Below are positions 3,321 to 33,264 of a stretch of 34,702 nt of DNA, one piece after another; the stretch's first letter is position 1; each line of letters starts with the position of its first letter. The notes beneath the pieces were generated by a model, which was given only the letters and a program-made list of their open reading frames with translations, did no database searches and had not been told where the DNA came from. The DNA is from a virus. The stretch is taken from positions 1 to 34,702 of IMG/VR virus record IMGVR_UViG_3300031576_000205, one strand, 5' to 3'. Position numbers and translations under genes: made by a program.

Positions 3321-3480
3321 AAGGACGCCCCCTATTGAAAGGCACAGTAATGATACGTTCGACAACACATCCCATGGCTTCATTTTCACGGCGACACCGT
3401 GAGCAGAAATGAAAATTACCCCGCACGGGAATTCTTTTCTTGCATTTCAAACAGAATCTTTTTTGTGGCTTGACGTCCAT
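3310..3480 (-). CDS. Small zinc-ribbon protein
   Basis: A 56-residue basic protein with C10-x2-C13 and C26-x2-C29, a zinc-ribbon or zinc-finger knuckle pair. The core (CLKCKKR ... C..C.R.NE.MG) closely resembles residues 49-75 of the protein at 30685-30963, which supports the gene being real despite its size. The ATG at 3480 lacks an obvious ribosome-binding site; translation may be coupled to the overlapping upstream gene (3416-3637). A nucleic-acid-binding role is likely from the fold type but not shown. Confidence 0.68.
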   Translation of the reverse strand: MDVKPQKRFCLKCKKRIPVRGNFHFCSRCRRENEAMGCVVERIITVPFNRGRPYDY

Positions 3481-6873: not shown

Positions 6874-8140
6874 GGTGGATAGCGGGACGAAGCGAATCGT
6901 AATTGTCTGGCATCGTCGGTCAGGCAAGGATGAGACCTGCCTTAACGTCCAGATCAAACATGCGTGGAAGTATCCGGGATCTCATTACTATTTTTTTCCA
7001 AGTTACTCGCAAGGCCGAAAGGTGTTGTGGGAGGGTTGCAATGGAGATGGGAAACGCTTCATGGATCACTTCCCTAAAGAATTAATCATCGGGAGGCCGC
7101 GCGAGGATGACATGCAAATCAGGATCAAGACCCAAGACGGAGGCATGAGTACTTGGCAGATTGTCGGCGTTGACAACATAGACAGCATCATGGGAACAAA
7201 TCCTATCTCTGCTGTTTTTTCAGAGTTTTCCCTTCAACATCCACGCGGCTGGCAGATGATCCGCCCCATACTTGCTCAAAATGGAGGGTGGGCAATCTTC
7301 AACTTTACGCCGCGCGGAAATAATCACGCGAAGGAAATGTTCGACCTTGCATTGAAAAACAAATCATGGTATGTTGACCTGAAGACTGTGAAAAACACTT
7401 TGAAGGATGATGGCATGCCGGTATTGACTGAAGAGCAGATTGATGTTGAGCGCACAGACGGAATGCCAGAGGACTTGATCCAACAGGAATACTACTGTTC
7501 TTTCAGCGGGTCCATCACTGGTTCATACTACGGGCGTCTTCTTGAAAAAGTAAGAGAAGATGGCCGCATGACACGGATTCCCTACAATGCGAATTTGCTG
7601 GTGAACACATACTGGGACATAGGGCACCGTGATTCCACAGCTATCTGGTTTGCGCAATTCTACAATTCCGAAATAAGACTCATTGATTATTACGAAGCAT
7701 CCGGCGAAGCGTTGAATCACTACATAAAAATTTGCCGCGAGAAAGAGTACGTGTACGGACAGCACTTCGGCCCGCACGACATTGAGGTAAAGGAGTTGAC
7801 TTCCGGCCTTTCAAGGCGCGAGGTTGCGGCGAAGCTCGGCATTCGCTTCAGGACAGTGCCGCGCCATCCCGTTGACGAAGGCATTGATTCCGTGAGGCGC
7901 ATCTTGCCACGCTGCTGGTTTGATGAGAGCAAATGCAAAAGGGGTCTTGATGCATTGGCGCAATATCATAAAGAGTATGATGAAAAGCGCCGCGCATTCA
8001 TGGGGCACCCGCAACATGACTGGGCGAGCCATGGTGCCGATGCGTTCAGGACTATGGCCATGGCATACAGAGATGCGCAAAGCGATACCGATACGCCCCG
8101 GCAACTTGTGGCGGACAATACCTACACCATATTTACATGA
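6812..8140 (+). CDS. Terminase large subunit
   Basis: A 442-residue packaging motor ATPase and nuclease. The ATPase part shows Walker A HRRSGKD (34-40), a Walker B-like AVFSEF (134-139) and a coupling motif FNFTPRG (163-169). The C-terminal RNase H-like nuclease has TYWDIGHRDS (D269, D274), FGPHD (D323) and the terminal HDWASHGADAFR acidic motif. The ATG at 6812 has AAGAAGG just upstream, inside the small-subunit gene. The HRRSGKD form fits the terminase group seen in many podoviruses and related phages. It is translationally coupled to the next gene region (stop overlaps an ATG). Confidence 0.95.
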   Translation: MKITIPYQFHPRAYQLPIFYEVDSGTKRIVIVWHRRSGKDETCLNVQIKHAWKYPGSHYYFFPSYSQGRKVLWEGCNGDGKRFMDHFPKELIIGRPREDDMQIRIKTQDGGMSTWQIVGVDNIDSIMGTNPISAVFSEFSLQHPRGWQMIRPILAQNGGWAIFNFTPRGNNHAKEMFDLALKNKSWYVDLKTVKNTLKDDGMPVLTEEQIDVERTDGMPEDLIQQEYYCSFSGSITGSYYGRLLEKVREDGRMTRIPYNANLLVNTYWDIGHRDSTAIWFAQFYNSEIRLIDYYEASGEALNHYIKICREKEYVYGQHFGPHDIEVKELTSGLSRREVAAKLGIRFRTVPRHPVDEGIDSVRRILPRCWFDESKCKRGLDALAQYHKEYDEKRRAFMGHPQHDWASHGADAFRTMAMAYRDAQSDTDTPRQLVADNTYTIFT

Positions 8141-12616: not shown

Positions 12617-12633
12617 CTTTTTTGGAGGTTGCA

Positions 12634-13113
12634 ATGGCTGTCACGAATCAGAAGTCAAATGAAGTGACCGACCTCGATGCGTCTCCGGTGGTTTTGCCGG
12701 ACACAAGCAAGAGGCACGGAAGGGTTCGCATTAACCGATTCACCTTTACGCAAAGTGGCGTTGGTGATGCGGGGAGCGACGTAGTGTTGGCAAGATTGCC
12801 CGCTCACTCGCGCGTGATTGGGCATGTGTCAAAGTTGTATTTCAGCGCGTTTGGCGCGGCCCGGACGCTCGATGTAGGCTACAAGGCTTACACCGAAGTG
12901 GACGGCGATGCTGTGGTTGCGAGTACGAATTTCTTTGCGACGGCGGTGGACGTGTCGGGCGCGGGGAGTCTTGTATTCGATGAGGCCGGAACAGCGGCTG
13001 CCCAGCAGGGTCAGAAATTCGACGGCCCTGTTGATCTCGTGGCGACGGTTGCTGGTGGCACGATCCCGGCTGCCGCGACGCTGAGCGGTTGGGTGTTCTA
13101 CGTTGTCGATTAA
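12634..13113 (+). CDS. Capsid decoration/stabilisation-type structural protein
   Basis: A 159-residue alanine- and valine-rich protein, probably beta-structured, starting MAVTNQKS with a DLDASPVVLPD segment. Proteins of this kind directly follow the capsid gene in many podoviruses and are found in virions, though the exact role is inferred. The ATG at 12634 has TTTTTTGGAGG upstream, nearly the same leader as the capsid gene, suggesting equally strong translation. A strong hairpin ends the pair. Confidence 0.75.
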   Translation: MAVTNQKSNEVTDLDASPVVLPDTSKRHGRVRINRFTFTQSGVGDAGSDVVLARLPAHSRVIGHVSKLYFSAFGAARTLDVGYKAYTEVDGDAVVASTNFFATAVDVSGAGSLVFDEAGTAAAQQGQKFDGPVDLVATVAGGTIPAAATLSGWVFYVVD

Positions 13114-13119
13114 CTCAAT

Positions 13120-13146
13120 GCCCGGGGGACTAAACATCCCCCGGGC
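13120..13146 (+). terminator. Strong hairpin after the capsid/decoration genes
   Basis: gcccggggga (13120-13129) pairs perfectly with tcccccgggc (13137-13146) around a 7-base loop. It starts six bases after the decoration stop. Only three T residues follow, so it may be a weak or partial terminator that lowers expression of downstream tail genes, or a 3' mRNA-stability element. Confidence 0.7.
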
Positions 13147-13154
13147 CTTTGGGA

Positions 13155-13191
13155 TTCGCCCCAGCGTTGATGCGAGGGCGTGGATTGAAAC
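13155..13191 (+). other. Solitary CRISPR-repeat-like sequence (type I-C style)
   Basis: The 3' half, gggcgtggattgaaac (13176-13191), is what I recall as the 3' end of type I-C CRISPR repeats. The 5' part ttcgcccc (13155-13162) resembles their start, and cgccc can pair with gggcg. The loop is 13-14 bases where classic I-C repeats have about 4, so the match is partial. There is one copy only, no spacer array and no cas gene. It lies between the capsid hairpin and the adaptor gene, whose ATG is at 13195. Confidence 0.4.
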
Positions 13192-13194
13192 GAG

Positions 13195-13761
13195 ATGGCT
13201 TCTGAAATTGAAATAGTCTCCAATGCCTTGATTTTGCTCGGGGACAAATCTGTCACTTCTTTTGAGGAAGCGTCAGACAGAGCGTTGCTTGTAAAAAGTT
13301 TGTACACTTCAACGCGGGACGCGGTGCTTAGAGCGCATCCTTGGAATTTTGCCATAAGAAGAAAAGTGGTCGCCAAGGATGCGGCTGCCCCCGTGTTTGG
13401 AGAATTTAAAACTCAGTTTACTCTTCCGACCGACCCGTATTGTCTCCGCGTTCTGGATGTGGATGATGACCCAGAAATACGCTTCAAAATAGAGGGGCGT
13501 AAAATTCTTGCTGATGTAGAAACCTTAAATCTTCGGTATGTGGCGCGTATTGTGGACACGAATGAGTACGACGCATTATTTTTGACAACGCTCGAAGCGC
13601 GCCTTGCGGCAGATGCGGCAACGCCAGTGACTGGAAGCGCAAGCATGTTCAATCAAATGTGGGCTGTTTATACATCGAAACTGCGTGAAGCAAGATCCAT
13701 AGATGGTCAGGAAGGTTCCCCAGACACATTCAGCGCGAACGATCTCAGCAAGGTGAGGTGA
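13195..13761 (+). CDS. Tail adaptor (tubular protein A, T7 gp11-like)
   Basis: A 188-residue protein expected to form the ring joining portal and nozzle. The N-terminus (SNALILLGDKSVTSFEEASD, then LYTSTRDAVLRAHPWNFAIRR in two parts) is the standard signature of podovirus tail tube A / gatekeeper proteins, and the length fits. There is no strong ribosome-binding site; the CRISPR-repeat-like element occupies that position. The nozzle gene follows four bases after the stop. Confidence 0.9.
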   Translation: MASEIEIVSNALILLGDKSVTSFEEASDRALLVKSLYTSTRDAVLRAHPWNFAIRRKVVAKDAAAPVFGEFKTQFTLPTDPYCLRVLDVDDDPEIRFKIEGRKILADVETLNLRYVARIVDTNEYDALFLTTLEARLAADAATPVTGSASMFNQMWAVYTSKLREARSIDGQEGSPDTFSANDLSKVR

Positions 13762-31468: not shown

Positions 31469-31643
31469 ATATCTCCACTCCGTCGATACACGCCTCGGAT
31501 TTCATTGACTGGACATACTCTTGAATTTTCACGGCGTCCGGCATCAAGAATTGGCGCGGCAATTTCGCATGGCCGATTATCTGCCATTTCCACACCGAGC
31601 TGTACGATGGGCCTTCAATCGTTACCTGATGATTCTTTTTCAC
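31428..31643 (-). CDS. Small conserved phage protein, unknown function
   Basis: A 71-residue protein with a VWKWQI...LPRQFLMPD...DGVEIYED pattern that I recall from short phage early proteins and from the C-termini of some larger ones. No activity is known to me. The GTG at 31643 has AGAGGTGGT upstream and overlaps the TGA of the DUF6745-like gene (GTGA), indicating coupling; an earlier GTG at 31664 is less likely. Confidence 0.68.
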   Translation of the reverse strand: MKKNHQVTIEGPSYSSVWKWQIIGHAKLPRQFLMPDAVKIQEYVQSMKSEACIDGVEIYEDVTFPTQTHAF

Positions 31644-32944
31644 GTCACCACCTCTGGCTTCCACATTTTCTTACTATCTCCATACGCCCGCCAGTTAATA
31701 GATTCCTGCACCGTATTGCATTTCTCATCCACCTCCTCCACATGCCAGACTCCGATGGATGGATTTCTCATCTTGAGAAACCGGCAATTCTTTATCTCAC
31801 CAATCTTGTCGATGGAAAGCAATTCATAATCTCCGCGTTTGTCCAGCGTGATCGCTCCCATCTTGTGAATGAATCGCTCAAGTCCTATCTTGCGAAGCAA
31901 TTCCCTTTTCACGTTCAAATTTTCTTCCTTGACCACCAATTCAGGGTCTAGTTTTTCCGAGGGTGTCAATACGTGTTCCGGTTTCATCTTCGTGCCATTC
32001 AGATAATAAAGTTTCGTCCCGCAATTCCACTCTATAGCCGCTCCATTCTCGCAATGAAGCTGGTTTCTTGAATCCATCTTTCTCATTTTCGCCCTGTCGC
32101 AGAGCAGAACGAACTTTTCGTGCACGAAGCGGGGGCCTCCGTGAATAGCGGCCTGCTCGTAGAACGCATAATTCTTGTGAGACGGATGCTTCCATCCGAT
32201 CACGTCCCTTACGAATGACAGATAACAACACCACGATGCCCATTCGGAGCCTCCATTATAAAAAATGCTCCATTTCCTAACGGCATCCAAACATTCTTCC
32301 CTGACATCTTTCCCTAGTTTTTTCGATACAACGGAATATGCCACATCGAATATCATGCTGAAATTCGCGTGCTCCGTCATGTTTAAGTTCGAGGTGGCGG
32401 CGGAGGAGGCGGAGGTAGCTACGCGGGTGGCGGAGTCGATGGTGGCTTCGTATGTGGTGGTTTCGGTGGCAAGATCGATTGCGGAGGAGGTGGTTGCGTC
32501 GTAGGTGATGGCGCGGGTGGCGGCGACGGCGGCGGCGGAGGTGGTGGAGCGGGATGCGGCGAAGGTGGCGGCGGCGGTGGTGGAGGCAGAGGTACGGATG
32601 GCAGCATAAGTGGTGGCTTCTGAGGTGGCAGCGGCGGTGTAGTTGGTGGCGTCAACGGCAGTGTAGGTGGAGGTGTCTAGGTTGGTAGTGTGCGCGTCAG
32701 AATTATTCTTCATGTGTTTCCAGTACACCGCCGCGCATCCGAATACAATCGCCCCGACCATAGCAGACGGAACCCTGACAACATTTAACGGACGCGCAAG
32801 TCCAGCCGCGTCGTACATATTCAACACCGCTTCTTTCGTCCTCTCGAAATCAATGTGTTCTGTGGATAGAATCAATTCCTTCCATCGTTCATTCCAAGCT
32901 GGAATTTGCTTTTTGTGCTCTTCAGTCAAATCCCATTTTTTCAT
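31640..32944 (-). CDS. DUF6745-like protein with tetrapeptide-periodic insert
   Basis: A 434-residue protein. The flanks match what I know as DUF6745: an N-terminal TEEHKKQIPAWNERW and RPLNVVRVPS, and a C-terminal part with FVHEKFVLLCDR, HCENGAAIEW, VKRELLRKIGLERF and a terminal NPSIGVWHVEEV...NWR. Residues about 84-187 are a low-complexity insert of Ala, Thr and Ser with a period near four (A-T-x-x). Family members carry comparable short repeats of other composition here. Function is unknown. The ATG at 32944 overlaps the partner's stop (TGATG); the longer GTG start at 33010 is unlikely. Confidence 0.8.
   Translation of the reverse strand: MKKWDLTEEHKKQIPAWNERWKELILSTEHIDFERTKEAVLNMYDAAGLARPLNVVRVPSAMVGAIVFGCAAVYWKHMKNNSDAHTTNLDTSTYTAVDATNYTAAATSEATTYAAIRTSASTTAAATFAASRSTTSAAAVAATRAITYDATTSSAIDLATETTTYEATIDSATRVATSASSAATSNLNMTEHANFSMIFDVAYSVVSKKLGKDVREECLDAVRKWSIFYNGGSEWASWCCYLSFVRDVIGWKHPSHKNYAFYEQAAIHGGPRFVHEKFVLLCDRAKMRKMDSRNQLHCENGAAIEWNCGTKLYYLNGTKMKPEHVLTPSEKLDPELVVKEENLNVKRELLRKIGLERFIHKMGAITLDKRGDYELLSIDKIGEIKNCRFLKMRNPSIGVWHVEEVDEKCNTVQESINWRAYGDSKKMWKPEVVT
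32384..32695 (-). repeat. Degenerate 12-bp (four-codon) repeat region
   Basis: Inside the DUF6745-like gene, about 26 degenerate units code for A/T-T-x-x tetrapeptides, dominated by GCC ACC codons (the plus strand shows runs such as ggtggcggcgg). It differs sharply in composition from neighbouring genes. The period and purity suggest expansion and contraction by slippage or recombination. Confidence 0.8.
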
Positions 32945-33264
32945 CAGTCCACCACATTTTCTGTCATTCGCGTGATCCAATTCTTCGTGAGGATGCGGCC
33001 AATCCTCCACAGCGCGGGCATGAGCTTGACCGTCCCATGCTCCTGATGCGAAACATCCGAATCCGTTTTCACGTCCGCATAGATTGTTCCGTCGTCCGCA
33101 ACGTAGACATCCACACCATCACCATCCGGCAAAATCGTATGCGCGTGTCCCGTCGCCTCGCCTTCTGCCAAAACATATTTCCCATCCACAGGAATCAACT
33201 TCTTCAATCCCTCTGGACGCTTCTCCACCGTCTCAAACGTCACGTCTCCTTGCTGTAACTGCAT
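32944..33264 (-). CDS. Small conserved partner of the DUF6745-like protein
   Basis: A 106-residue beta-rich protein: MQLQQGDVTFETVEKRPEG ... LAEGEATGHAHTI ... HQEHGTVKLMPALWRI. The GEATGHAH and (H/T)xEHG signatures define a small protein I recall as often lying next to DUF6745 genes in bacteria and phages; its histidines could bind metal. Function is unknown. A GGAGG site precedes the ATG. Its stop overlaps the DUF6745-like ATG by one base, so the two are translationally coupled. Confidence 0.78.
   Translation of the reverse strand: MQLQQGDVTFETVEKRPEGLKKLIPVDGKYVLAEGEATGHAHTILPDGDGVDVYVADDGTIYADVKTDSDVSHQEHGTVKLMPALWRIGRILTKNWITRMTENVVD

Follow-up and report, generated by a model that had tools for sequence, protein, structure and literature searches.

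Solitary CRISPR repeats carried by viruses inhibit CRISPR (PMC10651486). The experimentally validated type I-C example, RacrIC1 of a Bifidobacterium pseudocatenulatum prophage, lies outside any array, 11 nt downstream of an acr gene with which it is co-transcribed in a two-gene transcript, and inhibits the type I-C system (PMC10651486). Solitary repeat units (SRUs) in IMG/VR and in prophages were found with SRUFinder, which requires a match of 90% identity or more that covers no less than 90% of a known repeat from a database of 17,823 sequences (PMC10651486). The type I-C ribonuclease is Cas5d. It needs a hairpin plus a single-stranded 3' tail, and its cleavage at the base of the hairpin yields a handle of 11 nt (PMC3890593). 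Type I-C repeats, such as GTCGCACTCTACATGAGTGCGTGGATTGAAAT of Bacillus halodurans (PMC3890593), have a TCGC start, a hairpin and a GCGTGGATTGAAA(C/T) tail with this handle.

The window analyzed here, the whole stretch of 34,702 nucleotides, is a virus record of 34.7 kb. Podovirus genes in it are those for terminase, PHROG 332 portal, capsid, PHROG 394 adaptor and PHROG 376 tail protein. A repeat-like element stands directly before its adaptor gene, in the following surroundings, with the basis of each annotation in brackets.

12622..13113, + strand: 163-aa gene, downstream of the major capsid gene and upstream of the element, without a PHROG match (gene call, PHROG search)
13120..13146, + strand: older GC-rich, terminator-like hairpin with a weak T tract, between the 163-aa gene and the element (sequence, fold, relatives)
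13155..13191, + strand: solitary type I-C CRISPR-repeat-like element of 37 nt, consisting of TT, a hairpin and an 11-nt tail (sequence and the population of similar viral solitary elements)
13155-13156, + strand: leading TT of the element (sequence)
13157..13180, + strand: hairpin with a CGCCC/GGGCG 5-bp stem (13157-13161 with 13176-13180), a 2x2 internal loop, a 2-bp inner stem and a 6-nt loop (RNA folding)
13181..13191, + strand: 11-nt tail TGGATTGAAAC, the type I-C 5' handle, with a predicted Cas5d cut at 13180/13181 (tail shared with arrays of bacterial genomes that encode Cas5d)
13195..13761, + strand: head-tail adaptor / tail tubular protein A gene, with its ATG 3 nt past the element (PHROG 394, E 5e-49)

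The last 16 nt of the element, GGGCGTGGATTGAAAC (13176-13191, + strand), occur once in the 34,702 bases, and the whole window holds no second site within three mismatches. From base composition, 1.7e-5 copies of this 16-mer (about 2e-5) would be expected in the window, and 3e-7 copies of the 16-mer together with a Watson-Crick CGCCC 5-bp arm 8-24 nt upstream. The earlier note had proposed that the 5' part pairs with GGGCG, and the folded RNA contains exactly this stem, reading CGCCC-CA-GC-GTTGAT-GC-GA-GGGCG with the internal loop CA/GA, the inner stem GC/GC and the loop GTTGAT. The picture of a 5-bp stem with a huge loop needs correcting: the hairpin consists of two stacked stems closed by 6 nt, and the whole element has 37 nt compared with 32 nt in a normal type I-C repeat. 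The hairpin (-12.4 kcal/mol for the element RNA) still formed when the full intergenic region 13112-13240 was folded. Since the fold by itself is only moderately stable relative to shuffles (z -1.7), the case rests on the sequence and population evidence. No Rfam family matched the element.

The assignment of the 16 bases to the 3' end of type I-C repeats, made in the earlier note, was borne out by bacterial genomes. There, 74 loci have the tail in arrays of three or more regularly spaced repeats (about 66 nt), with 41 different repeats among them, and the 16-mer is the 3' end of true CRISPR repeats, with 16 of 16 bases common to arrays and element. The Cas5d model TIGR01876 scored above its cut-off in 15 of the 18 genomes holding such arrays, compared with 1 of 14 control genomes. 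The 11-base 5' handle that had been read within the element was confirmed in the same way, as the tail of these Cas5d-associated arrays and as the 11-nt Cas5d handle (PMC3890593). That the element mimics a type I-C repeat is thus close to certain. The agreement did not extend over the whole element, whose best gapped global identity with the 90 array repeats fetched from bacterial genomes was 81%; its stem differs from all of them, yet the pairing and the tail are retained. Like the SRUs, the element is intergenic, solitary and CRISPR-repeat-like and lies in a virus record; unlike them, it has a divergent hairpin that is 5 nt longer and falls below the required 90%, as measured against our 90 repeats and not the 17,823 of the SRUFinder database. 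All features of a solitary repeat unit are present, namely a type I-C 3' part, an adjoining (imperfect) hairpin, no second repeat and an intergenic site in a mobile element, and the element is a divergent version of the known solitary-repeat/Racr elements.

The window contains no CRISPR array: as had been noted before, the tail is found only once (TGGATTGAAA has a single occurrence), and no second or partial repeat lies near the element. Tails of other CRISPR types (I-E, I-F, II) were not found in the window, where ATTGAAAG stands alone at 3334; no cas genes were recognized among the window proteins examined; and none of 1,327 distinct spacers from the fetched arrays matched the window above a reversed control. 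The element differs from genuine type I-C repeats in being a single copy, of 37 instead of 32 nt, with neither spacers nor recognized cas genes. It shares with the CreA-type repeat-like RNAs (PMC8501985) a degenerate repeat within a transcript and processing by a CRISPR ribonuclease, which in the window is a prediction, whereas CreA has a spacer-like guide and resides in host cas loci. Viral mini-arrays with host-type repeats do exist (PMC11656645), and the repeat might accordingly guide the sequence downstream of it against another phage or the host; however, there is one repeat only, not two around a spacer, and what would be the spacer encodes the first residues of the conserved adaptor (MAS...), so that we rejected this highly improbable reading.

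To place the element among viral sequences, we searched 2.9 million viral contigs, using only the 16-mer as query. It was present in at least 119 viral stretches, compared with 2 and 7 for control 16-mers that were read backwards and block-swapped, respectively. After removal of duplicates, 94 distinct solitary copies remained among the matches listed, and in 82 of these 94 an inverted 5' arm pairs over 5 bp or more, even though the query was the 3' end only. Most of these 82 span 27-39 nt; their stems have 5-9 bp, and their loops differ widely. The window hairpin falls within this size range, and the earlier objection to its length loses weight because hairpins of 35-39 nt are common among the solitary copies listed. 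Some copies (L038, L069) share the TTCGCC start, the length (35-36 nt) and the layout of the window element; their stems have 9 bp, while the window hairpin, with two mismatched layers, has a weaker 5 + 2 bp. No near-identical hairpin was found elsewhere in the viral contigs. Among the matches listed, 35 of the 82 paired elements are less than 90% identical to any of the 90 fetched repeats, and these, like the window element, are therefore expected to be missed by a repeat-identity search such as SRUFinder. The gene calls in this analysis were simple and crude, and some contigs may be host fragments; judged from these sequences, candidate solitary type I-C repeat mimics turn out to be common in uncultured phages. 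A chance resemblance in an ordinary intergenic region would fit the imperfect hairpin (z -1.7) and the lack of a close relative in which conservation could be seen. The expectation of 3e-7 and the rarity of the control 16-mers across the collection make it extremely unlikely, and we rejected pure chance.

The viral copies are distributed unevenly relative to genes. Of the solitary copies listed, 26 of 80 (33%) lie at most 60 nt upstream of a same-strand gene, compared with 4.2% of random positions (P about 1e-16). The interior of same-strand genes is avoided, with only 16% of the copies there compared with the 56% expected from random positions. This strong preference for gene leaders weakens another earlier objection, that the element doubles as the adaptor leader. 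In two viral copies (L022 and L056) the start codon comes directly after the tail (0 nt), and in the window it comes after 3 nt, with GAG between the tail and the ATG at 13195; because of an in-frame TGA inside the tail, translation of the adaptor starts at 13195 and not upstream. The tail itself thus occupies the place where a Shine-Dalgarno site would normally stand, and anti-Shine-Dalgarno pairing is weak (-3.1 kcal/mol, compared with -2.5 to -12.1 and a median of about -7 in 29 relatives). These positions, together with a similar repeat-like element preceding cas5d in two bacterial genomes, are what would be expected of a Cas-responsive mRNA leader that regulates the adaptor gene in cis, with decoy action perhaps secondary. 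The handle overlaps the ribosome-binding region, and in type I-C hosts Cas5d that cuts there and stays bound to it would alter adaptor translation or split the mRNA. The genes downstream of the other viral copies, however, are mixed (portal, SSB, endolysin, primase, DnaB-like helicase and sigma factor), so that no common target is seen, and reduced adaptor expression would harm the phage. We regard cis regulation as the main role as unlikely, although it is a serious rival that is compatible with, and does not exclude, an RNA anti-CRISPR.

Conservation in related phages, which the earlier note had proposed as a check, was not found: the element is absent from all 160 related loci identified by their adaptor and capsid proteins, all of which have at most 64% protein identity. 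The note had named such absence as a refuting outcome, although elements of this kind are by nature sporadic. Among cultured phages, those closest in their adaptor infect Pelagibacter, with about 50% identity or less. No annotated phage had DNA similar to the window, and searches with a 32-nt canonical repeat and a 47-nt element as queries returned only short, chance-level matches. Many relatives have a GC-rich hairpin comparable to that at 13120-13146, which a simple scan did not score as a terminator, followed by a normal Shine-Dalgarno site. A distant podovirus contig, L095, has a solitary type I-C repeat-like element (7870-7900) 9 nt before its adaptor ATG, with the same local gene order as the window and with this copy likewise preceded by a similar GC-rich hairpin and followed by the adaptor gene. 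The adaptor and portal proteins of the two are 27% and 23% identical, respectively, and BLASTP detected no significant similarity between their capsid proteins. The tail occurs at most 25 nt before ATGGC.(A/T)C in 21 viral stretches, and among the matches listed only L095 has it before an adaptor gene; most of the others look like chance, without a hairpin, and were set aside. The element is a sporadic acquisition in this phage, and since the 160 closer relatives lack it, its presence in both the window and L095 looks like repeated gain at one place and not inheritance. A recombination relic of a host CRISPR array, retained only as the leader of the adaptor gene, would also be a single copy with an imperfect stem and absent from relatives. 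We consider a relic quite improbable, given that no whole or partial second repeat lies nearby, that the stem departs from every fetched array repeat although, as in many viral copies, its pairing is preserved and so is the tail, and that viral copies avoid coding sequence.

The element is probably a type I-C solitary repeat unit acting as an RNA anti-CRISPR (Racr) within the adaptor mRNA leader. This is the best available reading, since a type I-C Racr has been validated and solitary 16-mers with paired arms are massively enriched in viral contigs; the earlier Racr proposal is partly supported, the part without support being conservation in relatives. As no sigma-70-like promoter or scored terminator was found at 12900-13500, the element would be expressed by read-through, carried on a capsid-to-tail phage mRNA. 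In a type I-C host, Cas5d would recognize the hairpin and the 3' single-stranded tail, cut at the hairpin base (13180/13181) and remain on the 11-nt handle, with adaptor mRNA occupying the spacer position. Cas5d, and probably also Cas7 and Cas8c, would consequently be tied up in non-productive, spacerless complexes. RacrIC1 and the window element are both solitary type I-C repeat mimics, without an array, on a phage transcript with a protein gene, the transcript being a predicted one in the window. They differ in that RacrIC1 follows an acr gene and has proven inhibition, whereas the window element, for which we infer an anti-CRISPR function, leads a structural gene and has a longer, imperfect hairpin, with no acr recognized (ten small or unnamed window proteins had no match to acr or other NCBIfam families). 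Against the Racr reading count the 160 relatives lacking the element, the imperfect stem, the best repeat identity of 81% and the lack of a recognized acr; an anti-CRISPR would also seem to be needed earlier than a late structural transcript is made.

RNA anti-CRISPRs have been catalogued by similarity to known repeats, and a search anchored on the tail only brings out far more type I-C candidates. Their hairpins are free-form, they often lie in gene leaders, and in two very distant podoviruses one precedes the same adaptor gene. If such elements work, Cas5d would require any hairpin plus the fixed tail, and phage mRNAs themselves would be suggested as decoys. We tentatively raise the possibility, doubtful as it still is, that CRISPR-repeat mimics serve as phage mRNA leaders, such that the mRNA of an ordinary, possibly abundant gene is the decoy captured and marked by Cas5d, which would link anti-CRISPR activity to gene expression or make a Cas-sensing switch of it. 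Were this so, divergent hairpins with a fixed tail would hide a large class of elements from repeat-identity searches.

Several further observations were made along the way. The minus strand of the window (31640-33010) has a 456-aa reading frame with a long Ala/Thr-rich stretch mid-protein and no NCBIfam match. Two bacterial genomes that belong to one class and contain type I-C arrays have a solitary repeat-like element between a cas3-like gene and cas5d, some 6 kb ahead of the array (L442:1495-1526, G009 contig C8:123494-123525; L443:1375-1406, G128 contig C21:101874-101905), and in L443 a degenerate second copy (GCATGGATTGAAAT) lies just upstream; these look like CreA/CreR-type regulatory mini-CRISPRs of the cas operon. 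Two viral contigs each carry two different solitary type I-C-like elements, 3.7 kb apart before portal and sigma factor genes in L009, and 4.8 kb apart before a helicase and an unknown gene in L116. In three near-identical contigs (L002, L039 and L047), one leader element, preceding the same 80-aa gene, has a homopolymer run of variable length in its hairpin, followed by aaacaaccggagataacaATG.
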